28,176 bases of DNA from a virus. Under the pieces are notes generated by a model. That model was not told the DNA's origin and did not search any database. It saw nothing but the letters and a program-made list of their open reading frames with translations. The stretch is from the IMG/VR virus record IMGVR_UViG_3300025426_000098, positions 1 to 28,176 of that record. One strand, given 5' to 3'. This document shows positions 1,994 through 19,788 of this stretch, piece after piece; the first letter of the stretch is position 1; each line of letters begins with the position of its first letter. Made by a program: the position numbers and the translations under genes.

Positions 1994-2221
1994 TCAATGA
2001 ATGATCTCGCCATCATCAGGCAACTGTTCTCTGTAAAGACCAGTAATCATGATGGAGATATTACGAATAAGGGATTGCTCTTCAACGTCAAAGAACAACC
2101 CCACCTTTGCTAACGTCAACCCCAAGGCGGGGAGGATTGTCTCGACTGGCAAGCCATCGATCAACTCTCCTATTCCCGCCATCAGGTTCTCTACTTCATC
2201 TGCTTGATCTTGAATGCTCAT
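1994..2221 (-). CDS. Hypothetical helical protein, 75 aa
   Basis: ATG 2221 shares one base with the stop of the vWA gene (TGATG), with AAGGAG eight bases upstream, so it is probably translated by re-initiation after the vWA protein. Mostly amphipathic helices (NLMAGIGELIDGLPVETILP, then a Leu/Val-rich second helix). Its tight coupling suggests a partner or subunit of the vWA/AAA+ module, but that is inference from position only. Confidence 0.7.
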   Translation of the reverse strand: MSIQDQADEVENLMAGIGELIDGLPVETILPALGLTLAKVGLFFDVEEQSLIRNISIMITGLYREQLPDDGEIIH

Positions 2222-3027
2222 CACTTCAACTCCTTGAGTAGTTTGTTGAATGATGCTGATGCCAAGCCACTGACATTCTCAACATTCTCACCGCTCGTAA
2301 AGCATTGATCAACTGTAGTGCGACCGATACCGATTGCAACAATCTTGACACCAAGCTTATCTGCTACTGACTGCAAGTGTTTCATGTGCGCTTTGCAATA
2401 GCCATCCGCATCAGTGATCAAGAACAAGATCTTACGCTGTGCATCCTGACGATACAGATCCTCAATCGCTAGGCTCAGGGCTGAGTAGTCAGGTGTTGAT
2501 GACTGTGCCCACTGGCGAATCGATCCAAGCTTTGCCGATGCTTTGGCTAGGTTCTCTTTCCATGTTTTAAATGGAATGAATCTGACGTGCTCAGTGCGGA
2601 ACGCATCGCCACGTTTAGTCGCACCGCTCTCGTCTAAAGCTTTAAGACTGGTGTTGCCATGAAACCCTGTGACGTTGAACTCGACACCAGCTTTGTCTAG
2701 GATGCGTGACAACTGGATCGTGATTGATTCAGCGATGACGATTTTGTTATCCTCCTCCATTGATCCTGAGCAGTCGATCAAGATTGACACCGAAGACTTG
2801 ACCGCATCAACGTGCTGACGTTTGCTAAACACCGCTGTGCTACCGCAAGCAAATCGTGTAAACGCTTTGCGATCAACCTTGCCTGATTCCTCGTGCGTTG
2901 ACCAACCAACCAAGTCAACCGAACGTAGCAAGCGTAGGATGTTTGCACGTGTTGCACCAAGCCCGCTGGTCTGCGTATTGAACTGGGCTGAGAAGTTAGT
3001 CTCGCATTCTGTTTTGTTGAGAATCAT
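2221..3027 (-). CDS. Stand-alone von Willebrand A (CobT C-terminal-like) protein, 268 aa
   Basis: vWA domains bind a metal ion at a MIDAS site and mediate protein contacts; in CobT and MoxR-partner proteins they work with an AAA+ ATPase. Seen: the MIDAS motif DCSGS at residues 85-89, the STPDYSAL segment with the MIDAS Thr near 178, and LITDADG near 204-208. The start ATG 3027 has GGAGGTAAT directly before it and lies one base after the stop of the HExxH protein (TAATATG). In classical CobT the vWA domain is fused to the acidic linker; here it is a separate gene in another frame. A chelatase role is not supported because no CobN-like subunit is present in the window. Confidence 0.85.
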   Translation of the reverse strand: MILNKTECETNFSAQFNTQTSGLGATRANILRLLRSVDLVGWSTHEESGKVDRKAFTRFACGSTAVFSKRQHVDAVKSSVSILIDCSGSMEEDNKIVIAESITIQLSRILDKAGVEFNVTGFHGNTSLKALDESGATKRGDAFRTEHVRFIPFKTWKENLAKASAKLGSIRQWAQSSTPDYSALSLAIEDLYRQDAQRKILFLITDADGYCKAHMKHLQSVADKLGVKIVAIGIGRTTVDQCFTSGENVENVSGLASASFNKLLKELK

Positions 3028-3028
3028 A

Positions 3029-4048
3029 TTACCTCCATGAGAAGTTTGAATACTGTGGCTTACCAACAGCGGGGATCGGTCTAACCTGATCAGCTTGTGA
3101 ACGATGTTGCTTTAGTTCTTCACGAATGAAATCATTAGGCTCAACCTCACGACCACCATCATACGACTTACCACCACCACGCTTAGGATCTTTGCTTGGC
3201 TCATCACCTTGCTCACCATCCGCTTGCTCGTCACCGTCCTTGTCACCAGCTTGATCGCCACCTTGACCGTCTTGCTTGTCACCGTCTTGATCACCGTCTT
3301 GCTTTGGTGCTGGATTAGACCCATCAGGCTGACCGTCTTGCTCTCCATCAGGTTGATCGCTAGGCTGACCCTTACCATCGCCCTCACCCTGTCCAGCTTC
3401 CTCGTCTTGCTGTTTGATACGCTTGTACAACTCAACCGCAACCTTGACGATCTCACTAGTGTTAGTCGCTTTGCTTGCACGACCGAGCGCCCAGTGAATA
3501 TGCTTGGCATAGATTGAATCATCAGTGATGTTCGGTACGTCAATCACGTAACCGTTTAAACGTCTACCCTCAACAGCCAGCAAGAACGGAATGTTCTTTG
3601 CATCATTAGGATCTACGTAGCCATCACGATCCAGTACCGAGTTAATCAAGTTAACGAACAGTGCACGTGCGTTTGGCGCACGCTGTGATTCGATGACTGA
3701 CAACTCGATGCGTGGATCTTCAAGACCATTGATCAGGTTACCAACGTATGCACCGTAACGCTTGCGTGCTAGATCCCAAGGCTTGTTCTCGGTAAACCAT
3801 GCATGACCCAACTCATGCAGTGCGTAGCCGATCAAGTTATTGAACGTGGTCTGAGGGATCTCAGCACTCTCATCAATCGATGGGAAGATCACCGTTGCAT
3901 CAAGGTGAGTATCACCGTAGCGATTGAACTGAATGCCAGCAGTGCGACCAGTCCACAATACGTTGAGAGTACCGAACTCGAAGTCACTGTTCTTGAACAC
4001 ACGCTCTAGGGTTGTAGCGACCCCACGCTTTACATTTAGTCCGAGCAT
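3029..4048 (-). CDS. CobT N-terminal-like protein with HExxH motif and acidic repeat linker, 339 aa
   Basis: Seen: HELGH at residues 78-82 followed by NGLEDPRIE at about 107-115, the pair found in CobT-like and DUF2201-type putative metallopeptidase domains. Residues about 220-300 form a low-complexity linker of Gly, Asp, Gln, Glu and Lys. A basic tail closes the protein. It starts at ATG 4048 behind GGAGGG, which overlaps the stop of the AAA+ gene. Together with the next gene it equals a CobT cut between linker and vWA domain (339 + 268 aa). Whether the HExxH site is active is unknown, but both His and the Glu are present. It likely acts with the AAA+ ATPase upstream. Confidence 0.8.
   Translation of the reverse strand: MLGLNVKRGVATTLERVFKNSDFEFGTLNVLWTGRTAGIQFNRYGDTHLDATVIFPSIDESAEIPQTTFNNLIGYALHELGHAWFTENKPWDLARKRYGAYVGNLINGLEDPRIELSVIESQRAPNARALFVNLINSVLDRDGYVDPNDAKNIPFLLAVEGRRLNGYVIDVPNITDDSIYAKHIHWALGRASKATNTSEIVKVAVELYKRIKQQDEEAGQGEGDGKGQPSDQPDGEQDGQPDGSNPAPKQDGDQDGDKQDGQGGDQAGDKDGDEQADGEQGDEPSKDPKRGGGKSYDGGREVEPNDFIREELKQHRSQADQVRPIPAVGKPQYSNFSWR
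3190..3400 (-). repeat. Degenerate short tandem repeats coding the acidic linker
   Basis: Units of about 9-15 bases built on CACCGTC, CTTGATC and CTTGTCACC repeat through this stretch and encode Gly-Asp-Gln-Lys runs. Such repeats can expand or shrink by slippage, so linker length may vary between related phages. Confidence 0.7.
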
Positions 4049-4057
4049 AAAGCCCTC

Positions 4058-5488
4058 CTATTTAGTTAAGAATGATTTCAGATTAGCGATGTCAATCGTT
4101 GCACTGAATACACCACGCAACTCGCTTTCGCAATCAGCGGGGAACTTATTCACGATTGCATTCTCAAATGCAACTGCGACTGGTGCTCCCTTTTGAATTG
4201 CTCTAGCCCATGCAAACAACTGGCGCAAGCTTGGGGGCTGTGTCAGGATGCCCGCTCTTGCTTTCTCACGTGCAACGTTTGCAAACTTGATGAGGATCTC
4301 ACCAGCATCACGAGACAAGCCAGTGCGATTACACACGAGATTGATCTCATCATCAGCGGGTAGATACTCGAAGCGCAACGTATATGAGAAGCGATCAAGG
4401 AACGCTGTATTCTGATCACGCACACCAGCAAAATTGCCTGACGTATCTCCATGACCGTTGCTATTGTCTGCACCGAAGAACACCACGTGCGATGACACTG
4501 GGATGCGCTTGCCAGTCTCAGCGATCACGATCGAGCGATGAGGAGAGCGCTCACACAGTGCGTGCAGTACAGCTAAGTTCTGAGCACGAGCGAAACCGAT
4601 CTCATCAAGCAACACGATTGCGCCTGTGTGTTGGATAGCTTGAGTAATGACACCAGCTTTCCACACTACGTTGCTGTTCTCGATTGTGTTGCCACCGATA
4701 AACTCAGCACGCTCCAGCGCTTCGTCAAAGTTCACACGAAACAGTCTGCGACCAAGACGTGATGCCAACTGTGCAACGAACTCAGTCTTGCCTGTACCAC
4801 GCTCACCAGCAAGCCACACGTTGTCAGGCAATGGATCATCGAGTGCGATCAAAGCTTGGTGCAAGTGCTGAGGATTAAACACGTAGTCATCGACACGAGC
4901 GGGAGCATCAGGATCATTCCACACACCGACCTCGAACTCTGAGAAGTCAACGACCTCACCAGCGTATTCATACGAGAGCACACCATCGAATACGTCACGT
5001 GCTTTCTTGATCTGAAACACTGGCAAAGCGTTCGCAATCTCAGTGATCCGCTGTGCGGGTTCTGTCTTGCGGAACTTCTCAAACACCTTGGCAACTTCCT
5101 GAGCGATGTCAACGGTTGCAGTCTGCCCAACGCTTGCAAGCTTTGCGTTTAAACGGTCAGTCAACTTGGCGAAATCCTTGTCGATCTTGGTTTGAATCTG
5201 CAATGCATTGTCGAGCGCACTGTTGGCAGTCGTACGAATTGCATCAACATCATTCAGCGCCTTGTTGATATCGTTGCGAACGTCATCAGGAACTGCGCCA
5301 GTACGATTGATCGGACTAGGCTTGGTTGCCTTGACCTGATCAAGAGTAATGTGACCCATGTTGATCAGATCACCAACCTTTATAACGGCGATTGATTTAT
5401 CTGATTCAACGTGAAGCTTGGATTTCACCAGCACTTCATTGAGAACGGTCAGCGGGATAAGGGATAGGTTTTTTGTAATGTCACTCAC
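4058..5488 (-). CDS. CobS/MoxR-like AAA+ ATPase, 476 aa
   Basis: AAA+ ring ATPase that would remodel a protein target through the vWA partner. Seen: Walker A GERGTGKT at residues 228-235, Walker B IVLLDEI at 291-297, and FLDRFSYTLRF, which matches the arginine-finger region of CobS/MoxR proteins. CobS is usually about 330 aa; here about 200 extra N-terminal residues are helical and coiled-coil-like (70-140). The start is GTG 5488 with AAGGAG nine bases upstream. It lies between the SprT-like gene and the HExxH and vWA genes. Many phages carry such genes labelled cobaltochelatase; the real target is unknown. Confidence 0.88.
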   Translation of the reverse strand: MSDITKNLSLIPLTVLNEVLVKSKLHVESDKSIAVIKVGDLINMGHITLDQVKATKPSPINRTGAVPDDVRNDINKALNDVDAIRTTANSALDNALQIQTKIDKDFAKLTDRLNAKLASVGQTATVDIAQEVAKVFEKFRKTEPAQRITEIANALPVFQIKKARDVFDGVLSYEYAGEVVDFSEFEVGVWNDPDAPARVDDYVFNPQHLHQALIALDDPLPDNVWLAGERGTGKTEFVAQLASRLGRRLFRVNFDEALERAEFIGGNTIENSNVVWKAGVITQAIQHTGAIVLLDEIGFARAQNLAVLHALCERSPHRSIVIAETGKRIPVSSHVVFFGADNSNGHGDTSGNFAGVRDQNTAFLDRFSYTLRFEYLPADDEINLVCNRTGLSRDAGEILIKFANVAREKARAGILTQPPSLRQLFAWARAIQKGAPVAVAFENAIVNKFPADCESELRGVFSATIDIANLKSFLTK

Positions 5489-7406: not shown

Positions 7407-8045
7407 TTGAAAAAGACGAGAGATGAATTGATAACGATGCTGGAGGACGATGCTATTACCGTTGACGATGTTCGCACTAGCACAACGCAAGCGGGCACGA
7501 ATAGCGAAGCGATCCAGTCGGCTGTAGATCGTGTAGAGATAAAGAGAAAGAGAAATGGATTACCAGTAGGTGTAAAGACAGATAAGACTGGTAAGAAGCT
7601 TAATAAACCCACTGCCAAGATGCTGGCATTCGCATCCTACGTGCTCAATGGTGATGCTCCGAGAGATGCGTATCGTAAAGCTTACGACTGTAGTGGTAGT
7701 GCTGATGCCACGATCATTGCACGTGCGAACGAATTGATGAGACACAGTTCAATCACTTTACTTCTTGAACCTTTGATCACTGCCAAAAAAGAATTGGTAC
7801 TTGCGAACGAGGTAGCCACACGCAAGCACATCATGGAGGAGCTGTTCGTTCACAGCGCCAATGAAGAGACGAACGTTGGTGCACGACTGCGTGCGCTGGA
7901 GCTGATGGGCAAGGCTGTCGGTATGTTCATCGATAAGGTCGAGACCAAGGTCGAGGAGATCAACGCAGAGCAACTCAAGCAAGAACTCGAATCGCACTTG
8001 ACGTTACTCGACAACGTGACATCGATCAGAAAGAAAAAAGCGTGA
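7407..8045 (+). CDS. terS: Terminase small subunit, 212 aa
   Basis: DNA-recognition subunit that would bind the packaging site and load the large terminase. Residues about 65-115 match the Terminase_2 helical domain: KMLAFASYVLNGDAPRDAYR followed by the S-x-A-x-ANELM segment. The C-terminal helices probably form the oligomer and contact the motor. The start is TTG 7407 with TAGGAG six bases upstream; no better start exists nearby. The N-terminal 55 residues are polar and likely flexible. It opens the rightward packaging and head operon, although the large terminase comes two genes later. Confidence 0.85.
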   Translation: MKKTRDELITMLEDDAITVDDVRTSTTQAGTNSEAIQSAVDRVEIKRKRNGLPVGVKTDKTGKKLNKPTAKMLAFASYVLNGDAPRDAYRKAYDCSGSADATIIARANELMRHSSITLLLEPLITAKKELVLANEVATRKHIMEELFVHSANEETNVGARLRALELMGKAVGMFIDKVETKVEEINAEQLKQELESHLTLLDNVTSIRKKKA

Positions 8046-8081
8046 CGTGGGCTTGTGCGTTTGCGCTGGCGCACACCCACG
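8046..8081 (+). terminator. Strong hairpin just after the small terminase gene
   Basis: CGTGGG (8046-8051) pairs with CCCACG (8076-8081) and, after a CT bulge, TGTGCG (8054-8059) pairs with CGCACA (8070-8075): a 12-bp stem. It begins at the base after the stop codon. The first T-run (five T at 8098-8102) is about 16 bases further on, so it may attenuate transcription or protect the mRNA end rather than fully terminate. Confidence 0.55.
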
Positions 8082-8183
8082 CTACCCCCATGCCCCCTTT
8101 TTGACGGGATGGTCTGCATTGGACTCTACACTCTGAAATACACATTTAATTACATACTTTTTAGCTATCAGAACGTTTCCATA

Positions 8184-8199
8184 TGTTTCACGTGAAACA
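8184..8199. other. parS: Canonical parS centromere site
   Basis: TGTTTCACGTGAAACA, a perfect 16-base palindrome that matches the consensus chromosomal parS bound by ParB at all 16 positions. ParB loads at parS as a CTP clamp and spreads on flanking DNA; ParA and SMC then act on it. No ParA or ParB gene is in this window. The site is intergenic, between the small terminase gene and the 81 aa gene. Confidence 0.85.
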
Positions 8200-8228
8200 C
8201 ACCCCCTGTTGTTTTTTTGCAATGCAAA

Positions 8229-8276
8229 GTTTAAACGTTCGTGTAGAATACCCCCTATGAACGTTTCCGTTTAAAC
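8229..8276. repeat. Two GTTTAAAC palindromes 40 bases apart
   Basis: Copies at 8229-8236 and 8269-8276. The first reads GAACGTTTAAAC on the minus strand, the same 12-mer found on plus at 7038-7049. TTGCAA lies six bases before the first and TAGAAT seven bases after it, but the 21-base spacing is too long for a standard sigma-70 promoter. Confidence 0.6.
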
Positions 8277-8310
8277 ATGGAGGGGTATATATTTTGGAGG
8301 AAAAACACTT

Positions 8311-8556
8311 ATGGATTATGTTGGGGTTACTGATCGTATTGGCAATGATCCTATGAGCGATCAAAACTTTTTATTGCGTAGCACCATCATTGACCTTGAA
8401 ACAATGAGGACACCTTATGAACCAGCATCTCGTGGCTACATGGCACTTACAACAGCCATTAGCATTTTGCGGCAAATGCAAGTTGTTTATGACGTGGGCA
8501 ATTCTTGCTCACCAGCAAAACCTAAATTAAGAATAGTAAAGGAATGTAATGACTGA
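8311..8556 (+). CDS. Hypothetical protein, 81 aa
   Basis: ATG 8311 after GGAGG with ten-base spacing. Soluble, mixed helical protein with no recognised domain; the middle (TMRTPYEPASRGYMALTTAI) looks like a short helical bundle. It overlaps the LexA-like gene downstream by 8 bases, so the two are probably co-translated. The role is unknown. Confidence 0.7.
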   Translation: MDYVGVTDRIGNDPMSDQNFLLRSTIIDLETMRTPYEPASRGYMALTTAISILRQMQVVYDVGNSCSPAKPKLRIVKECND

Positions 8557-8779
8557 AAAACAAAAGCGGGTATACGACTTTATTCAAGCCTTTATTCGTA
8601 CGCATGGGTTTGCACCCAGCTATACCGAGATTGCTAAAGGATTAGAACTACGTAGCAAATCTAATATTCATCGTTTGGTGCACAATTTAAAAGACAAGGG
8701 ATTGATTAAAATCAACCCCCATATGGTGCGTAGCATCAAAGTAATCGATGCAACCGTTCGTGAGATGGCTGCCCTTTGA
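8549..8779 (+). CDS. LexA N-terminal-like winged-helix DNA-binding protein, 76 aa
   Basis: The whole protein matches the LexA DNA-binding domain: MTEKQKRVYDFIQAFIRTHG, then FAPSYTEIAKGL, LRSKSNIHRLVHNLKDKG and a wing with a conserved Arg-Ser-Ile. There is no protease/dimerisation domain, so SOS-type self-cleavage is impossible; it could act as a constitutive repressor, or compete with host LexA. It starts at ATG 8549 behind AAAGGA and overlaps its neighbours (8 bases upstream; TTGA with the large terminase). Its operator is unknown; the GTTTAAAC sites just upstream are one candidate, by position only. Confidence 0.8.
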   Translation: MTEKQKRVYDFIQAFIRTHGFAPSYTEIAKGLELRSKSNIHRLVHNLKDKGLIKINPHMVRSIKVIDATVREMAAL

Positions 8780-10287
8780 GTCTTCTTACTAAGGCGGAGA
8801 TTAAGAAGTATTTAGCGTTATTAGAAACGCTGCCTAAAGATTCGCCCCAAATTCCCAAAATACATCAACTGCTCAAGCAGGACAAAATTGAGCGTTGCAG
8901 GGAAAACTTTCTACCTTTTGTAAAGGAGATGTGGAGTGCCTTCATTCCCGGTAAACACCATGCTGTCATGGCTGATGCATTTGAAAGAGTTGCTAATGGA
9001 ACTCTTAAACGGCTTATTATTAATATGCCGCCTCGTCATACTAAATCTGAGTTTGCGTCTTATCTCTTTCCCGCTTGGTATCTTGGAAAGTATCCACAAA
9101 AGAAAATTATTCAAACTGCCCATACAGCAGAACTTGCCGTTGGTTTTGGACGAAAAGTCCGTAACGTTGTCAACACACCCGATTATCAAGCTGTATTCCC
9201 AACTAAGCTATCTTCTGATAGCAAAGCTGCGGGTCGTTGGAATACCGATAAAGGCGGCGATTATTTCGCTATCGGTGTGGGCGGTGCGGTTACAGGTAAA
9301 GGTGCGGACGTTCTAATTATTGATGACCCGCATTCGGAACAAGAAGCCATGCAAGGCAATCCCGAAGTATATGATCGGGTCTTTGAGTGGTATGGATCAG
9401 GACCACGTCAGCGTTTACAGCCGGGCGGGTCAATCATTATTGTGATGACACGCTGGTCTAAGCGGGATTTGACTGGTCAAATTTTAGATAACTCAATGAA
9501 AAGGGATGGAGATGAGTGGGAAGTCATCGAATTACCTGCGCTATTACCCTCTGGTAAACCTTTATGGTCTGAGTTTTGGTCGCAAAAAGAACTTGAAGCG
9601 ATCAAGGCGGAAATTCCTGTTAGCAAGTGGGAAGCCCAGTATCAGCAAAATCCTACATCTGAGGAAGGCGCAATTATTAAAAGGGAGCATTGGCGCATAT
9701 GGGAATCGGATGTCGCTCCTTACTGCGATTACATCATTCAGTCGTGGGATACCGCCTTTGAAAAGAGTAATCGTGCTGACTATTCCGCTTGCACCACGTG
9801 GGGTATCTTCTATAAAACGAATACTGAAGGCTTGGAAGTACCCAATATCATCCTTTTAGATGCTTATAAGGGACGTTTAGAGTTCCCAGAACTTAAACGC
9901 AAAGCGTTTGAGTACTACAAACACTGGAATCCAGACAGCCTAATTGTAGAAAAAAAGGCGGCTGGTGCGCCACTGATCTATGAAATGCGGGCAATGGGCA
10001 TACCGGTGTCGGAGTATACACCAAGCAAGGGTAATGATAAAATAGCCCGTGTAAACGCTATATCTGATCTTTTTGCGTCTGGTTATGTCTGGTGTCCAGA
10101 AGCACGATGGGCGGAAGAAGTGATGGAGGAATGCGCTTCCTTCCCTAACGGAGACCACGATGACATGGTTGACTCAACGTCACAAGCCTTGTTACGGTTC
10201 CGTCAGGGAGGTTTTATCCGTTTAAACAGCGATGAGCCAGATGAAGTAAAAGAATTTAGATCCAACCGAAACAAAGGTTACTACTAA
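8776..10287 (+). CDS. terL: Terminase large subunit, 503 aa
   Basis: The packaging motor and nuclease. Seen: Walker A-like MPPRHTKS at residues 84-91, Walker B VLIIDDPHSE at 179-188, the coupling segment IVMTRW at 222-227, and RNase H-like nuclease acidic residues in SWDTAF (D325), VEKKAAG (E392) and HDDMVD (D462-D463). The length fits the family. TTG 8776 overlaps the stop of the LexA-like gene as TTGA; a stop codon lies just upstream in this frame, so the choice is TTG or a much shorter protein, and the ribosome site is weak, suggesting coupling. Confidence 0.95.
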   Translation: MSLLTKAEIKKYLALLETLPKDSPQIPKIHQLLKQDKIERCRENFLPFVKEMWSAFIPGKHHAVMADAFERVANGTLKRLIINMPPRHTKSEFASYLFPAWYLGKYPQKKIIQTAHTAELAVGFGRKVRNVVNTPDYQAVFPTKLSSDSKAAGRWNTDKGGDYFAIGVGGAVTGKGADVLIIDDPHSEQEAMQGNPEVYDRVFEWYGSGPRQRLQPGGSIIIVMTRWSKRDLTGQILDNSMKRDGDEWEVIELPALLPSGKPLWSEFWSQKELEAIKAEIPVSKWEAQYQQNPTSEEGAIIKREHWRIWESDVAPYCDYIIQSWDTAFEKSNRADYSACTTWGIFYKTNTEGLEVPNIILLDAYKGRLEFPELKRKAFEYYKHWNPDSLIVEKKAAGAPLIYEMRAMGIPVSEYTPSKGNDKIARVNAISDLFASGYVWCPEARWAEEVMEECASFPNGDHDDMVDSTSQALLRFRQGGFIRLNSDEPDEVKEFRSNRNKGYY

Positions 10288-10295
10288 GGAATACT

Positions 10296-12821
10296 ATGGC
10301 AATTGATAAAGCCCTATACCAAGCCCCCAAAGGGATCGATGCTCTCGCTGCTGAAGAAGAGCCACTGGAAATTGAAATTGAACCAGACCACATTAATATA
10401 TCAACCGATGATATTGAAATTGATATTCAAGCCCTTGACCCAGAATTTGGCGAAAATCTTGCGGAGAATTTAGACGACTCGTTGCTGGCTTTAATTGCCC
10501 AAGAGTTGACTTCTGACTACGACTCTGATGTGGCGAGCCGCAAAGATTGGTTGCAAACCTACGTAGATGGTTTGGAATTATTGGGATTAAAGATTGAAGA
10601 GCGCAGTGAACCTTGGGAAGGTGCTTGCGGTATCTACCATCCTATTCTTGCTGAAGCGCTTGTAAAGTTTCAATCTGAAACCATTATGAGTCTGTTTCCC
10701 GCCCAAGGACCAGTTAGAACAAAAATTATTGGTAAAGAAACCAAAGACAAAATTGATGCAGCGCACCGTGTTGAAACGGATATGAACCACCGTTTGACAG
10801 ATAGAATGCCTGAGTATCGCCCTGAGACAGAGCGCACCATCTGGGGATTGGGTCTAGCTGGTAATGCATTTAAAAAGGTTTACTTTGATCCAAACTTAAA
10901 TCGCCCTATGGCTTTGTTTGTGCCAGCAGAAGATGTGGTTGTTCCTTATGGCGCAGCCAACCTAGAGTCTGCTGATCGTGTAACGCACGTGATGCGTAAA
11001 ACAGAAAATGAATTACGCAAGCTGCAAGTCATGGGTTTTTACCGTGATATTGATCTTGGAACTCCAATTAACTTCTTGGATGAAGTAGAAAAGAAAATTG
11101 CAGAGAAGCAAGGTTTTAGAGCAAGCTCAGATGACCGATACAAGCTTTTAGAAATGCACGTCAACCTTGATTTAGAAGGTTACGAGCATACAGATGAAAA
11201 CGGTGAACCCACTGGCATTGCTTTGCCTTATGTAGTCACTATTGAAAAGGGTACAAGTACCATCCTTTCAATCCGCAGAAACTGGAGACCAGATGATGAA
11301 ACATTCCAAAAACGTGCTCATTTTGTACATTATGGATACATTCCCGGTTTTGGCTTTTACCATTTTGGTCTCATCCATCTTATTGGTGCTTATGCTAAAA
11401 GTGGCACTTCCATCGTACGTCAATTGGTTGATGCAGGATCCCTCGCTAATCTGCCGGGTGGCTTTAAGACCCGTGGGTTGCGTGTCAAAGGTGACGACAC
11501 ACCAATAGCACCGGGTGAGTTTAGGGACGTGGACGTACCGTCTGGAGCAATGAAAGACAATATTATGCCGCTCCCATACAAGGAGCCAAGCCAGACCTTG
11601 CTTACTTTGTTAAACGGCATTATTGAAGAAGCTCGCAGATTTGCTAACACAGCAGACTTATCCGTATCCGATATGTCCGCTGCTGCGCCAGTTGGAACCA
11701 CGTTTGCTATTTTGGAGCGAACACTCAAAGTAATGTCGGCTGTACAAGCTCGTATCCATTTTGCTCTCAAGCAAGAATTAAAGCTGCTTAAAGAAATTAT
11801 TGCAGAAGATACTCCAGAAGACTATGACTACGATCCAGATAGCGGTAATCGGCACGCTAAAAAATCAGACTACGATGCCGTAGACTTGATTCCAGTAAGC
11901 GATCCTAATGCTTCTACGATGGCGCAAAAGATTGTTCAGTGGCAAGCCGTACAACAGTTGGCTCAGTCTAACCCACAGTTTTTTAATATGCAGTTGATGA
12001 ATCGCCAAATGGTTGAAATATTAGGCATTCCTAATGCCAATAAACTTGTGCCTATGGCTGATGATATTAAGCCTACTGATCCCGTTTCTGAAAATCAAAA
12101 CATTTTGATGCAAAAACCAGTCAAGGCTTTTGAATATCAAGATCACGAAGCCCACATTACTGTGCATATGATGGCAATGAAAGATCCAAAGATCCTACAA
12201 GTATTGGGACAAGGACCACAAGCCATTCAATTGCAAGCGGCTATGCAAGCGCATATTAATGAGCATTTAGGTTTTGCTTATCGTGTTGAAATTGAGAAAC
12301 AATTGGGTATGTCATTACCACCTAAGTCTGATGAAATGGGTGATGACGTTGGCATGAATCCAGAAGTGGAAGCTCGTTTGGCTCCAATGTTGGCTCAAGC
12401 TGCTCAACGTCTATTACAGAACAATCAGCAACAGGCGGCACAACAGCAAGCCCAGCAACAGGCACAAGATCCATTGGTTCAGATGCAGCAACAAGAGTTA
12501 CAACTTAAACAAGCTGAACTTGAGCGCAAAAAACAAAAAGATATGGTTGATGCTCAATTAAAAGCAAGTCAGCAACAAATTGAGAAAAGCCGTATCCAAG
12601 CACAGACGGTATTGGAAGCAGCTAAAACTCAAGCAGGTCTACAGTCTCAAGAAACACGAGACAAGATACAAATCGGTGCAGATTTGGTTAAGCATATTTC
12701 AAGCAAAGACCAAGAGCACAAAGTTCAAAACAAACAGCTATTTACACAAGGATTGAGAGACGCTCACCAAGTTGCAGAAGCTGAACAAGCCCGTTTAAAC
12801 GCTAAAAAGGGTAATAAATGA
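10296..12821 (+). CDS. Portal protein, P22-like, 841 aa
   Basis: Forms the ring at the capsid vertex through which DNA enters. It follows the large terminase by eight bases, with TAAGGA before ATG 10296. Residues about 70-600 match long P22-type portals (for example LEMHVNLDLEGYEHTDENG, the GAYAKSGTSIVRQLVD helix, and NGIIEEARRFANTADLSVSD). The last 150 residues are Gln/Ala-rich (QQQAAQQQAQQQAQDP) and then a charged coiled coil, like the portal barrel of P22. The acidic N-terminus (20-60) is low-complexity. The gene ends overlapping the next by ATGA. Confidence 0.92.
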   Translation: MAIDKALYQAPKGIDALAAEEEPLEIEIEPDHINISTDDIEIDIQALDPEFGENLAENLDDSLLALIAQELTSDYDSDVASRKDWLQTYVDGLELLGLKIEERSEPWEGACGIYHPILAEALVKFQSETIMSLFPAQGPVRTKIIGKETKDKIDAAHRVETDMNHRLTDRMPEYRPETERTIWGLGLAGNAFKKVYFDPNLNRPMALFVPAEDVVVPYGAANLESADRVTHVMRKTENELRKLQVMGFYRDIDLGTPINFLDEVEKKIAEKQGFRASSDDRYKLLEMHVNLDLEGYEHTDENGEPTGIALPYVVTIEKGTSTILSIRRNWRPDDETFQKRAHFVHYGYIPGFGFYHFGLIHLIGAYAKSGTSIVRQLVDAGSLANLPGGFKTRGLRVKGDDTPIAPGEFRDVDVPSGAMKDNIMPLPYKEPSQTLLTLLNGIIEEARRFANTADLSVSDMSAAAPVGTTFAILERTLKVMSAVQARIHFALKQELKLLKEIIAEDTPEDYDYDPDSGNRHAKKSDYDAVDLIPVSDPNASTMAQKIVQWQAVQQLAQSNPQFFNMQLMNRQMVEILGIPNANKLVPMADDIKPTDPVSENQNILMQKPVKAFEYQDHEAHITVHMMAMKDPKILQVLGQGPQAIQLQAAMQAHINEHLGFAYRVEIEKQLGMSLPPKSDEMGDDVGMNPEVEARLAPMLAQAAQRLLQNNQQQAAQQQAQQQAQDPLVQMQQQELQLKQAELERKKQKDMVDAQLKASQQQIEKSRIQAQTVLEAAKTQAGLQSQETRDKIQIGADLVKHISSKDQEHKVQNKQLFTQGLRDAHQVAEAEQARLNAKKGNK

Positions 12822-15735: not shown

Positions 15736-16638
15736 ATGGCTATTTCTCGTGCACAACTACTGAAAGAGTTGCTCCCCGGTTTGAATGCATTGTTCGGACT
15801 TGAGTATGCTCGTTATGGTGAAGAACACAAAGAGATCTACGAAACTGAGACCTCTGAGCGTTCTTTTGAAGAAGAAACAAAACTGTCAGGCTTTAGCGCT
15901 GCACCAGTCAAACCCGAAGGCAATGCCATCGCTTATGACAATGCGCAAGAAGCATGGACAGCTCGCTACAACCACGAAACTATTGCCCTTGGCTTTAGCT
16001 TGACTGAAGAAGCAATCGAAGACAACCTCTACGATTCTTTGTCAGCTCGCTACACCAAAGGTCTAGCTCGTGCTATGGCTTATACCAAGCAGGTAAAAGC
16101 TGCTGCTGTATTGAACAACGGTTTTAACGCTGCCTACACTTATGGTGACGGTCAAGCATTGTTCAGCACTGCACACCCATTGGTTAACGGCGGTACTAAC
16201 GCTAACACTCCTTCAACTCCTGCTGACTTGAACGAAACCGCATTGGAAAATGCTGTTATTCAAATCGCTGCATGGACTGATGAGCGTGGCTTACTGATCG
16301 CTGCTAAACCACGTAAATTGGTTGTTCCACCTGCATTGCAATTCGTTGCTACTCGTTTGTTAGAAACCGAACTCCGTGTTGGTACTAACAACAACGACAT
16401 CAACGCAATCAAGAACAATGGTTCTGTTCCAGAAGGTTACACAATTAACCACTTCTTGACAGCTACCAATGCATGGTTCCTGACAACTGATGTTCCAAAT
16501 GGTTTGAAACACTTTGTACGTACACCACTCCAGAATTCTATGGACGGTGATTTCGATACTGGTAACGTCCGTTACAAGTCTCGTGAGCGTTACAGCTTTG
16601 GTGTATCAGATCCATTAGGTGTATACGGTTCTTACTAA
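15736..16638 (+). CDS. Major capsid protein, Mu gpT-like (HK97 fold), 300 aa
   Basis: Forms the icosahedral shell. The whole length resembles the Mu-like major head subunit gpT family (PF10124): AISRAQLLKELLPGLNALFG at the N-terminus, an E-loop region around KLSGFSAAPVKPEG, ALGFSLTEEAIEDNLYDSL, and FSTAHPLVNGGTNANTPS in the middle. The usual length is about 300 aa. TAAGGAG is well placed before ATG 15736. A strong terminator ends the operon 37 bases on. No protease gene is nearby and no N-terminal cleaved domain is obvious. Confidence 0.92.
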   Translation: MAISRAQLLKELLPGLNALFGLEYARYGEEHKEIYETETSERSFEEETKLSGFSAAPVKPEGNAIAYDNAQEAWTARYNHETIALGFSLTEEAIEDNLYDSLSARYTKGLARAMAYTKQVKAAAVLNNGFNAAYTYGDGQALFSTAHPLVNGGTNANTPSTPADLNETALENAVIQIAAWTDERGLLIAAKPRKLVVPPALQFVATRLLETELRVGTNNNDINAIKNNGSVPEGYTINHFLTATNAWFLTTDVPNGLKHFVRTPLQNSMDGDFDTGNVRYKSRERYSFGVSDPLGVYGSY

Positions 16639-16675: not shown

Positions 16676-16704
16676 CCCCCGCCCAAAAAGCGGGGGTTTG
16701 CTTT
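16676..16704 (+). terminator. Rho-independent terminator after the capsid gene
   Basis: CCCCCGC (16676-16682) pairs with GCGGGGG (16690-16696) around a CCAAAAA loop, followed by TTTGCTTTT. It ends the packaging and head operon at the junction with the opposing glycan cassette. Confidence 0.85.
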
Positions 16705-17426
16705 TATAGGACTAGATCAAATCCCGGTGGAATGCAAATTAAATCATGTTGTTGGGGTGGAACTGAATAGCCCATGCTTTCAAAGAAAGCGATAATATTT
16801 CCAGCATTAGACTTATGTTGCTCAACCATAAATACAGGTTTATAACAATCAATCCAGTCTTCAGCAGCAAAAAGTGCTTGCTCTTCCATACCCTCAATGT
16901 CCATTTTGATAAGATCAACGTGCTCGTTAAACCAATGCAAAGGGTAGACTTCAACTCTTTCGGTATGGTTTTTAACCATATCCATGTTGTCTGATTTATC
17001 AATTGGCAATAATTCATAACCACCAAAGTTTTGATAAGAATCGTAATCTGGCAAAGTTGCATCAATGTGATCTATTTCATCGTTTCCAATTGCAAAATTA
17101 TGGCAACTAACATTGCGTAGCCCGTTTAAACTTACCATTCCACAAAGTTGATAAAAGATTTGACGCTGCGCTTCAAAAGCCCGAACAGAAACTTGGTCTT
17201 TAAACGTGTTTGCTATGGCAAGAGTATGAGTGCCAATATTGGCTCCTACGTCATAAAATACTACGTGTTGTTTTTTTACCAATAACTTTTCAATAATTTT
17301 TTTAAGTAGGTTAATTTGATCACGCTCAAAGTAACCAGTACGCTGCACATCTCCGCATACACCCCTATCATTTTTATTTAAAATTAACAGTCCATATTCT
17401 GTATTAACGGCAAAGTTGGGATTCAT
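16704..17426 (-). CDS. FkbM-family SAM-dependent methyltransferase, 240 aa
   Basis: Family members methylate sugars or lipids. Seen: motif I YDVGANIGTHTLA at residues 58-70, an acidic residue after strand 2 (FEAQ, near 84-87) for the SAM ribose, and HVDLIKMDIEGMEEQAL at about 169-185, the FkbM signature. The start ATG 17426 overlaps the previous gene's stop (ATGA) with AAAGGA upstream. It is the last gene of the three-gene minus-strand cassette and runs into the capsid operon end. The substrate, probably a surface sugar on host or virion, is unknown. Confidence 0.87.
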   Translation of the reverse strand: MNPNFAVNTEYGLLILNKNDRGVCGDVQRTGYFERDQINLLKKIIEKLLVKKQHVVFYDVGANIGTHTLAIANTFKDQVSVRAFEAQRQIFYQLCGMVSLNGLRNVSCHNFAIGNDEIDHIDATLPDYDSYQNFGGYELLPIDKSDNMDMVKNHTERVEVYPLHWFNEHVDLIKMDIEGMEEQALFAAEDWIDCYKPVFMVEQHKSNAGNIIAFFESMGYSVPPQQHDLICIPPGFDLVL

Positions 17427-18190
17427 AGTATTTCCTTTAAAAATTCTTTGGTCATTTCCATGCCACGATCAAATGAAGCATCCACATCTTTATAGCGAAA
17501 TACCTTCATAACACCGTCTTTAATATATGGGTCAATAAACATTTCATCACGTGGTGGGTCGATATAATCTCCAAGCCATACGAACGTAGGAATACGATTC
17601 ATAGCACTCATTGTTTTAATGCCACTATCTGCTCCAATAACTGCATGACATTGATTTACGTAAGCCAAGCTTTTTGCTGGATTGCTATGGCAAACAAGCT
17701 TTAAGCTTTCGCTTTCTTTTAAATTAATACCTTTTAATTCGCTTTCTAAACCAAATGCCATCAAGTTGTAATCATCAGATACAAGTTCTTTAATTACACG
17801 GGCTGGGATGGACTTCAAAATCATGCCAAATTTCTTTTGAGTATCAATAGAATATGCGCTACCGTTGATATGAACACCAACTACGGGTTTACCATTAGTA
17901 AATAATGGTTTTTCAAGATCAAATGGAAATTCAGCAAAATACTGAGCATGTGGGCAGTGAACCCAATTAATAGACTTGTTTAAACTATTTAAAAAGTGAT
18001 TTTGACCGTCCAAAGTTTCAAAGATATGCAATGGATCAACGGGGATTCCAATCGTGTCAAAAAACTCTTTAGCGCCCTGTAAATGGGTTACTGAGGCATA
18101 TTTATAAGGTTTATCTTTGTTAGCATCAATAAAAGGCAAACACTGCAAAAAATCTCCAATACCGCCCAACAATAAAATTACTTGCTCCAT
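17423..18190 (-). CDS. GT9-like (heptosyltransferase-type) glycosyltransferase, 255 aa
   Basis: GT-B fold resembling ADP-heptose:LPS transferases. Seen: the N-terminal GGIGDFLQCLPFI (residues 9-21) and, in the second domain, CHAVIGADSGIKTMSAMNRIPTF, the GT9 donor-binding pattern with acidic then Ser-Gly. It is shorter than typical heptosyltransferases (about 320-350 aa), so the first domain is reduced. ATG 18190 lies inside the end of the TPR gene (13-base overlap) with AGAGGA nine bases upstream. It probably acts with the other two cassette genes; donor and acceptor are unknown. Confidence 0.78.
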   Translation of the reverse strand: MEQVILLLGGIGDFLQCLPFIDANKDKPYKYASVTHLQGAKEFFDTIGIPVDPLHIFETLDGQNHFLNSLNKSINWVHCPHAQYFAEFPFDLEKPLFTNGKPVVGVHINGSAYSIDTQKKFGMILKSIPARVIKELVSDDYNLMAFGLESELKGINLKESESLKLVCHSNPAKSLAYVNQCHAVIGADSGIKTMSAMNRIPTFVWLGDYIDPPRDEMFIDPYIKDGVMKVFRYKDVDASFDRGMEMTKEFLKEIL

Positions 18191-19788
18191 TTAATTAAGT
18201 CCTCTTTAATGTTTTGTACTACTGATTCCCAGTCGCCCAACTTGGGCTGGCGGTAAAGTTTTAAGGTGGGATACCAAGGGCTATCGGTTCTGTCCATGAA
18301 CCAGCGCCAACAAGTATCAAAACGATTCATCATCCATACTTCTTTGCCCATAGCAGCCGCTACGTGAGCCGTAGACGTGTCAACAGCAATCACTAGGTCT
18401 AGGCTCCAAATATAAGCTGCGGTGTCTGCAAAGTCCTTAAAAAGCGGTGTATGGTTACACATTATGGATCTCCAACCTAAACAATTGTAAAGTTCTTGCT
18501 CTGGTCCTTCGCCCTTTTGTAAAGAATAAAAGTTAACATTGTCAACTTTTAGTGGAAGTAAACGTTCTAAGGAGATATTTCTACGCTCATTGACAGCCCA
18601 AACTTCTGGCTGATCAGGTCTAAACCCTCCAGACCAAACCAAACCAACATTCTTTTTTCCATTTGCCAAAAGCATTGGAGAAAAATATTCAACTAAAGCG
18701 GGATCGGGTTTTAAATAAATACCATAAGGAATGCTATCCATACGTGTTTTAAACGCATAAGGAAGGCTCATAAGAGGAATATGCAAATCAAACGGCGGAA
18801 TAGGATCTCCCGTAGTAACAACTTGATCAACACCCTCTAAAGATGTAAGCAATTTAACCAGAGGCTTTTCAGTGCCAAGAATCACTGTAGCTCCAGCTTC
18901 TTTGGCTAATTTAGCATAACGGCAAAACTGCAACATATCGCCAAGACCTTGCTCGCCATGAATAAATAGTATCTTGCCGTTTAAACTTTGTGTACCATCG
19001 TAGCAAATGCCGGGTAAGTTTCGTCTTGGATAAGTTGTTCTATTCCAGCGCCATTCGTGCTCTTCCCAAGCAACATCATATTCACCACGTAATAAGTAGC
19101 ACAAAGATCTATTAAAACGAGCATCAGCAAGATTGGGGTCTATCTCCACAGCTTTGTTGTAGTCAGCCAAAGCTTCATCTGGTCTGCCCAAGTTTTGATA
19201 AACCAACCCACGGTTATTATAAAAAGCTTCTACCCCTTTGGGGTTTTGTTTGATTCCAGCGTCATAACATGATAAAGTTTCTTCCATGCGATGCAATTTT
19301 TGCAGGGCTATCCCTTTGTTGTTATATGCCTCTGCAAAGCGTGGATTGATTTTAAGTGCTTGATTATAAAGATCAATTTCCTCTTCAGTTCTATGAAGAC
19401 TGCCAACTACAATGCCTTTGTTGTAATAAGCTTCTGCATATCTAGGGTTTATTTTTAGAGCATTATCAAAATCCATGATAGCTAACTCTGGTTGCTTTAA
19501 TGCTTGAAATACATTAGCTCTATTATTTAAAGCTACGGCATTATTTGGGTGTCTTTCTATAGACTTATTAAAAAATTCTAAAGCCGCAAGATAGTTTTTA
19601 ACACTGCCCAAAATGCACCCAATTAAATGATAGGCATCTGGATGATCTGGCTGCTCTTTAATGATTTGCTCACACAAAAGAATTGCTCTTTGATTGTCTC
19701 CGCTTTCTTGGCTTTTTTGAGCTTGAATAAGACGAGCAATGTTTTGATCTTTGAGTGGTTTAATTTTGGTAACGTTCTTATTTTTCAT
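18178..19788 (-). CDS. TPR-repeat glycosyltransferase, 536 aa
   Basis: Residues about 15-255 hold roughly seven 34-residue TPRs (for example AEAYYNKGIVVGSLHRTEEE). Residues about 275-536 form a GT-B glycosyltransferase domain of the GT9/SPINDLY-related type, with GEQGLGDMLQFCRYAKLAKE, PLMSLPYAF, DLVIAVDTSTAHVAAAMGKE and WRWFMDRTDSPWYPTLKLYR. The closest known relatives, by pattern, are widespread TPR sugar transferases in aquatic bacteria and phages. The start ATG 19788 has no clear ribosome site. It is first in the cassette, so it may be transcribed from a promoter directly upstream. Confidence 0.87.
   Translation of the reverse strand: MKNKNVTKIKPLKDQNIARLIQAQKSQESGDNQRAILLCEQIIKEQPDHPDAYHLIGCILGSVKNYLAALEFFNKSIERHPNNAVALNNRANVFQALKQPELAIMDFDNALKINPRYAEAYYNKGIVVGSLHRTEEEIDLYNQALKINPRFAEAYNNKGIALQKLHRMEETLSCYDAGIKQNPKGVEAFYNNRGLVYQNLGRPDEALADYNKAVEIDPNLADARFNRSLCYLLRGEYDVAWEEHEWRWNRTTYPRRNLPGICYDGTQSLNGKILFIHGEQGLGDMLQFCRYAKLAKEAGATVILGTEKPLVKLLTSLEGVDQVVTTGDPIPPFDLHIPLMSLPYAFKTRMDSIPYGIYLKPDPALVEYFSPMLLANGKKNVGLVWSGGFRPDQPEVWAVNERRNISLERLLPLKVDNVNFYSLQKGEGPEQELYNCLGWRSIMCNHTPLFKDFADTAAYIWSLDLVIAVDTSTAHVAAAMGKEVWMMNRFDTCWRWFMDRTDSPWYPTLKLYRQPKLGDWESVVQNIKEDLIKWSK

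Follow-up and report, generated by a model that had tools for sequence, protein, structure and literature searches.

Does an aquatic phage that carries a perfect bacterial centromere site make use of the ParB of its host? The window analyzed here was an entire public virus record of 28,176 bases, a linear fragment. A sequence-only reading had claimed a perfect parS in it, and the exact 16-mer TGTTTCACGTGAAACA, a palindrome, was confirmed at 8184–8199 (unstranded), matching the canonical chromosomal consensus at 16 of 16 positions. The same reading had called a chance match negligible (1e-9 to 1e-10 per position). This was right: arithmetic from the base composition gave about 1e-5 exact matches expected per 28 kb. 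A check for further sites found no second parS within ≤3 mismatches in the whole 28,176-base window, and shuffled versions of the window had 0.22 such near-matches on average.

As first described, the site was intergenic and beside packaging genes. It is located in the region at 8046–8310 (unstranded), between a terminase small subunit (TerS)-like ORF and the terL operon. The TerS-like ORF (7407–8045, plus strand; PHROG phrog_51, E = 8.8e-10) ends 139 bases before parS, and the downstream neighbour is a small ORF starting at 8311, followed by a small LexA-type HTH ORF (8549–8779, plus strand; PF01726, E = 2.4e-15). The terminase large subunit gene, terL (8776–10287, plus strand; phrog_38, E = 9.9e-109), begins 592 bases from parS and was used as the anchor for finding relatives. 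Elsewhere in the window, a three-gene module on the minus strand (2221–5488) encodes a CobS/CbbQ-like AAA+ ATPase, a CobT-like VWA protein and a peptidase-like companion. Three more minus-strand ORFs (16704–19788) are located inside the plus-strand structural operon, against the direction of transcription; by eye they are methyltransferase-like, glycosyltransferase-like and a TPR protein.

Three clades of relatives were collected by terminase similarity. Clade A was composed of 80 IMG/VR loci with TerL 78–100% identical to that of the window. Clades B and C, also 80 loci each, were queried with the TerL of loci L107 and L124, respectively. All were searched with the pattern [TGC]GTT[TC]CACGTG[AG]AAC[ACG]. 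In clade A, 27 of 80 loci had one parS and none had two. In clade B, 62 of 80 loci had exactly one, and 61 of these 62 sites were exact. In clade C, 38 of 80 loci held 107 sites (1–5 per locus), 106 of them exact. Five equally degenerate control palindromes gave no match in 1.87 Mb of the three clades' loci. The site was also present in a cultured phage, Pelagibacter phage HTVC027P, which infects SAR11 and has a TerL 57% identical to the window's. Its single parS, CGTTTCACGTGAAACA, is at 16412–16427, with gp31 and gp32 on either side, in the interval from terS to terL. Conservation in relatives was thus confirmed. The possibility that the contig joins host chromosome at this point was excluded, because 27 relatives and HTVC027P have the site in a phage context.

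The alignment of relatives proposed earlier, which asked whether the 16 bases stay fixed while the flanks change, agreed with this result. The core was kept in the 27 clade-A loci, and in many of them the flanks were wholly different. Information content was 0.05–0.2 bit in the flanks (clades A and C and unrelated loci) versus 1.8–2.0 in the core, a comparison that is partly circular since the sites were chosen by a pattern fixing 12 positions. The unbiased tests are the control palindromes, the position relative to terL and the all-or-none presence. In nearly all pattern-negative loci the best upstream site had 4–7 mismatches, indicating that presence is close to all-or-none; three loci of clades B and C had one mismatched core base. 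Across the three clades, bases other than positions 1, 5, 12 and 16 were very rarely substituted. Together, the all-or-none presence and the controls indicate that the parS sequence is held under selection. Among loci with enough upstream sequence, roughly one in two of clade A and 40% in clade C had no parS, indicating that the site is dispensable. Its presence on the TerL tree required at least 14 changes, and therefore gain or loss recurred. Sites outside gene-like ORFs numbered 20 of 28 in clade A, 46 of 62 in clade B and 64 of 107 in clade C; about 10% of the DNA is outside such ORFs. Near-matches of the form TGCTTCACGTGAAACC in five clade-A relatives were discounted, as they are inside the LexA-type ORF. 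Chromosomal parS clusters near the origin. A location near a replication origin, judged by GC skew, fitted the window and one clade-A genome and did not fit clades B and C.

We then considered whether the phages encode a partner for the site. The first reading had seen no ParB gene and had suggested searching for ParB and ParA. A Pfam search, which a highly diverged ParB could escape, found ParB_N (PF02195) neither in the window nor in 105 other phage records (46 clade-A or related, 44 clade-B or -C and 15 named). ParA-type ATPase (PF13614), HTH_ParB (PF17762) and tyrosine integrase were absent from 28 parS-positive records. In control genomes, every one of these searches picked up the family it was meant for. 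Related genomes are about 55–62 kb, so the content of the window's missing half was judged from relatives; the searched records included genomes of about 58–62 kb and HTVC027P. Of 50 virus records with an exact parS, only three had a ParB_N match. The plasmid prophages P1 and N15 and some mycobacteriophages also carry a partition site on the phage genome. In all of these, however, ParA, ParB and the matching site are the phage's own, whereas the window has the chromosomal consensus and no such proteins. A phage-encoded ParABS of the plasmid prophage type was not found.

A phage regulator might instead use the 16 bases as its operator, and the LexA-type HTH ORF, 350 bases downstream of parS, is a candidate. 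This gene was present near terL in 27 of 27 parS-positive and 26 of 26 parS-negative clade-A loci, so it was rejected as a parS-specific partner. The small ORF at 8311 was found in only 2 of 27 parS-positive loci. No gene tested tracked parS presence, and the variant spectrum of the site is that of chromosomal parS. We consider the operator explanation extremely improbable.

The position of the site was highly regular. The 665 kb examined upstream of terL contained all 197 sites of clades A–C, the window included; the 1.2 Mb downstream of or inside terL had none. The distance to terL was 107–152 bases in most clade-B loci (about 1,058 in four) and 404–1,496 bases in clade A. In the window, a promoter-like block directly follows parS on its 3' side (8217–8251, plus strand), consisting of TTGCAA, a spacer with GTTTAAAC and TAGAAT. 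Most parS-positive clade-A relatives had a block TTGACA..GTTTAAAC..TATAGCAAACT at the same place, and 15 of 28 clade-A loci had GTTTAAAC 29–36 bases 3' of parS. In clade B, a conserved promoter-like block followed parS. This arrangement would fit a transcriptional switch, in which host ParB loaded just before the late promoter slides over it and silences or anti-silences the terL and structural operon. There is a precedent: VirB, a ParB homologue, acts on transcription from virS sites upstream of its promoters (PMC10770331). Like the window, the VirB/virS system of Shigella has a parS-like site upstream of a promoter, and the mechanism of VirB is loading and sliding. VirB, however, is a dedicated plasmid-borne regulator, a CTPase of the ParB fold, whereas the window would have only host ParB and any regulation there is putative. 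The switch also fits poorly with clade C, whose arrays are spread over 0.1–4.7 kb before terL, with some clade-A sites, which are located in 5' UTRs or elsewhere, and with unrelated phages that have sites inside structural genes, such as genes 10 and 15 of phi29. In addition, a generic promoter scan gave no score to the 8217–8251 block; this promoter and terminator scan, a tRNA search and an Rfam search all returned no matches. A switch as the main function is possible but doubtful.

The 8-bp palindrome GTTTAAAC was itself abundant. The window had 22 copies, from position 255 to 23302, in coding and intergenic DNA (about one per 1.3 kb), against 0.8 expected from shuffles. Clade-A loci had about 449 copies in 626 kb, with 40 and 47 in two genomes of 58–62 kb. 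Only 0–2 copies were found in HTVC027P and in the clade-B and -C genomes checked. It looks like a putative dispersed binding site of a phage protein, reminiscent of stoperators. Clade B had other motifs: many loci (e.g., L213, L221 and L231) had a conserved GGGCCATGTTTYTNNCAAATA..ATATG just 5' of parS, and many had a palindrome, TTGCCTAATTATTAGGCA, just 3' of it.

A location between terS and terL could also mean that the site is a packaging or genome-end element (pac/cos or a TerS site) that resembles parS by coincidence. Clade-B contig ends cluster 0–500 bases upstream of terL, and in Pseudomonas phage phiPsa374 (KJ409772.2) the TGTTCCACGTGAAACA spelling at 388–405 is within the annotated direct terminal repeat. 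The clade-B clusters are next to GC-rich repeats, however, and may reflect these repeats instead of a genome terminus. The TerS-like ORF was equally present in loci with and without parS, and the same 16 bases occur in phages with unrelated packaging (phi29-like phages, inoviruses and microviruses). The coincidence is very improbable, and a link of parS to genome ends is a lead only.

To see how far the site extends, we scanned viral contigs for the exact 16-mer without a terminase query. It was found in at least 120 IMG/VR stretches; palindromes of the same composition were found in 1, 2 and 33. The scan led back to the same phages: among the matches listed, 80 loci included 14 with TerL 49–82% identical to the window's and five more with TerL about 30% identical, most of the latter with 2–5 parS copies. 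In unrelated contigs, the genes next to parS encoded portal, head, tail, adaptor and terminase proteins, phi29-like packaging among them. Among 50,697 named phage records, 315 had the exact parS and 164 the TGTTCCACGTGAAACA spelling, versus 0, 8 and 5 for three same-composition control palindromes, where the 8 and the 5 derive from one to two lineages each. The commonest hosts of named carriers were Listeria, Microbacterium, Arthrobacter, Gordonia, Bacillus and Pseudomonas. Neither Klebsiella nor Escherichia, both with many phages among the records searched, ranked in the top ten names for either spelling. Phage phi29 (NC_011048.1) had four TGTTCCACGTGAAACA sites, at 10445, 15903, 17243 and 18760, of which two fall within genes 10 and 15; B103 had two and Chedec 11 three. 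Spiroplasma phage 4 (4.4 kb) had one parS, and the filamentous phage bajarodino virus 3, an inovirus (PQ006097.1), had six exact sites in 6.2 kb. Hundreds of phages have parS without ParB, and for one of them, phi29, a connection to host ParB has been published. This spread, like the conservation upstream of terL, had escaped the earlier reading.

These copy numbers bear on whether the site is a decoy, with hundreds of replicated phage genomes titrating ParB off host parS and disturbing segregation or division. Site copies would increase with phage replication, and up to 5–6 sites per genome occur in clade C and an inovirus. Titration needs no fixed place upstream of terL, however, and most clade-A and clade-B genomes have a single site. 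We consider the decoy unlikely.

The phage sites were also compared with host centromeres. They have the same 16-mer and the same tolerated variants as chromosomal ParABS centromeres, the difference being that the window's site is carried by a phage with neither parA nor parB in cis. One Burkholderiales MAG holds a contig with TerL 74% identical to the window's. All 31 genomes of the MAG's family had chromosomal parS variants, which differed from the consensus chiefly at positions 1, 5, 12 and 16, the variable positions common to phage parS and Burkholderiales-type chromosomal parS. The MAG's own small phage contig had no parS, and this single contig is only a hint at a Burkholderiales host.

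The principle of a phage using host ParB is already known from phi29. According to a passage in PMC9437464, citing Meijer et al. (2005), phi29 DNA is trapped in spores by host Spo0J (ParB), so that host ParB acts on the phage genome. Like the window, phi29 is a virulent phage with host-type parS and no ParB_N domain, and in both parS is present and phage ParB absent. The window differs from phi29 in having a single intergenic site, placed before terL; the four sites of phi29 are dispersed, and its host sporulates. The nearest cultured parS-positive relative of the window is the SAR11 phage HTVC027P. SAR11 does not sporulate, and the spore rationale does not carry over directly to such hosts. 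In the open-licence literature (subscription papers and preprints aside), we found no paper on parS without ParB in other phages.

The conserved site, the host-like variants, the lack of phage ParB, the all-or-none presence and the phi29/Spo0J precedent support the use of host ParB. The earlier suggestion that the phage exploits host ParB is thus strongly supported by comparison; positioning, protection or condensation of the genome and diversion of ParB, the outcomes which that reading proposed, are candidate consequences. On this sequence evidence, the 16-mer is probably a functional parS acting in trans with host ParB, and host ParB very probably loads on it. During infection, host ParB-CTP would bind parS, close into clamps and slide over the neighbouring kilobases, and the cell would handle the phage genome like its own centromere DNA. 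The phage would most probably benefit by having host ParA and ParB, with SMC, place its genome and keep it there during a postponed or slow lytic cycle, as host Spo0J reportedly does for phi29 DNA in sporulating Bacillus. We tentatively take genome positioning or retention as the leading consequence of ParB loading, because of the phi29 precedent and the parS arrays in clade C and in inoviruses, phages that persist in cells. Sliding ParB may add an effect on late transcription, which is plausible because parS adjoins the late (terL) promoter region.

Few DNA-loading machines are understood as well as ParB clamps. To our knowledge, phi29 in spores is the one documented case of ParB taking part in a phage infection. 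Two things are new here: parS is conserved next to terL in relatives of a SAR11 phage, and the site has a broad distribution across phages. By these comparisons, the occurrence of parS in phages seems wider and more regular than one would expect from phi29. It is quite possible, and we offer it as a working view, that orphan parS is widespread and convergently kept. Many double- and single-stranded lineages might load host ParB to take over the centromere machinery, and the relatives of SAR11-type podoviruses might keep the site at the late terL region so that ParB loading is coupled to control of late genes or to packaging. If this is true, and selection keeps the site in aquatic lineages related to a SAR11 phage, across phages of many different hosts and in very small ssDNA phages, ParB would be a common phage–host interface.
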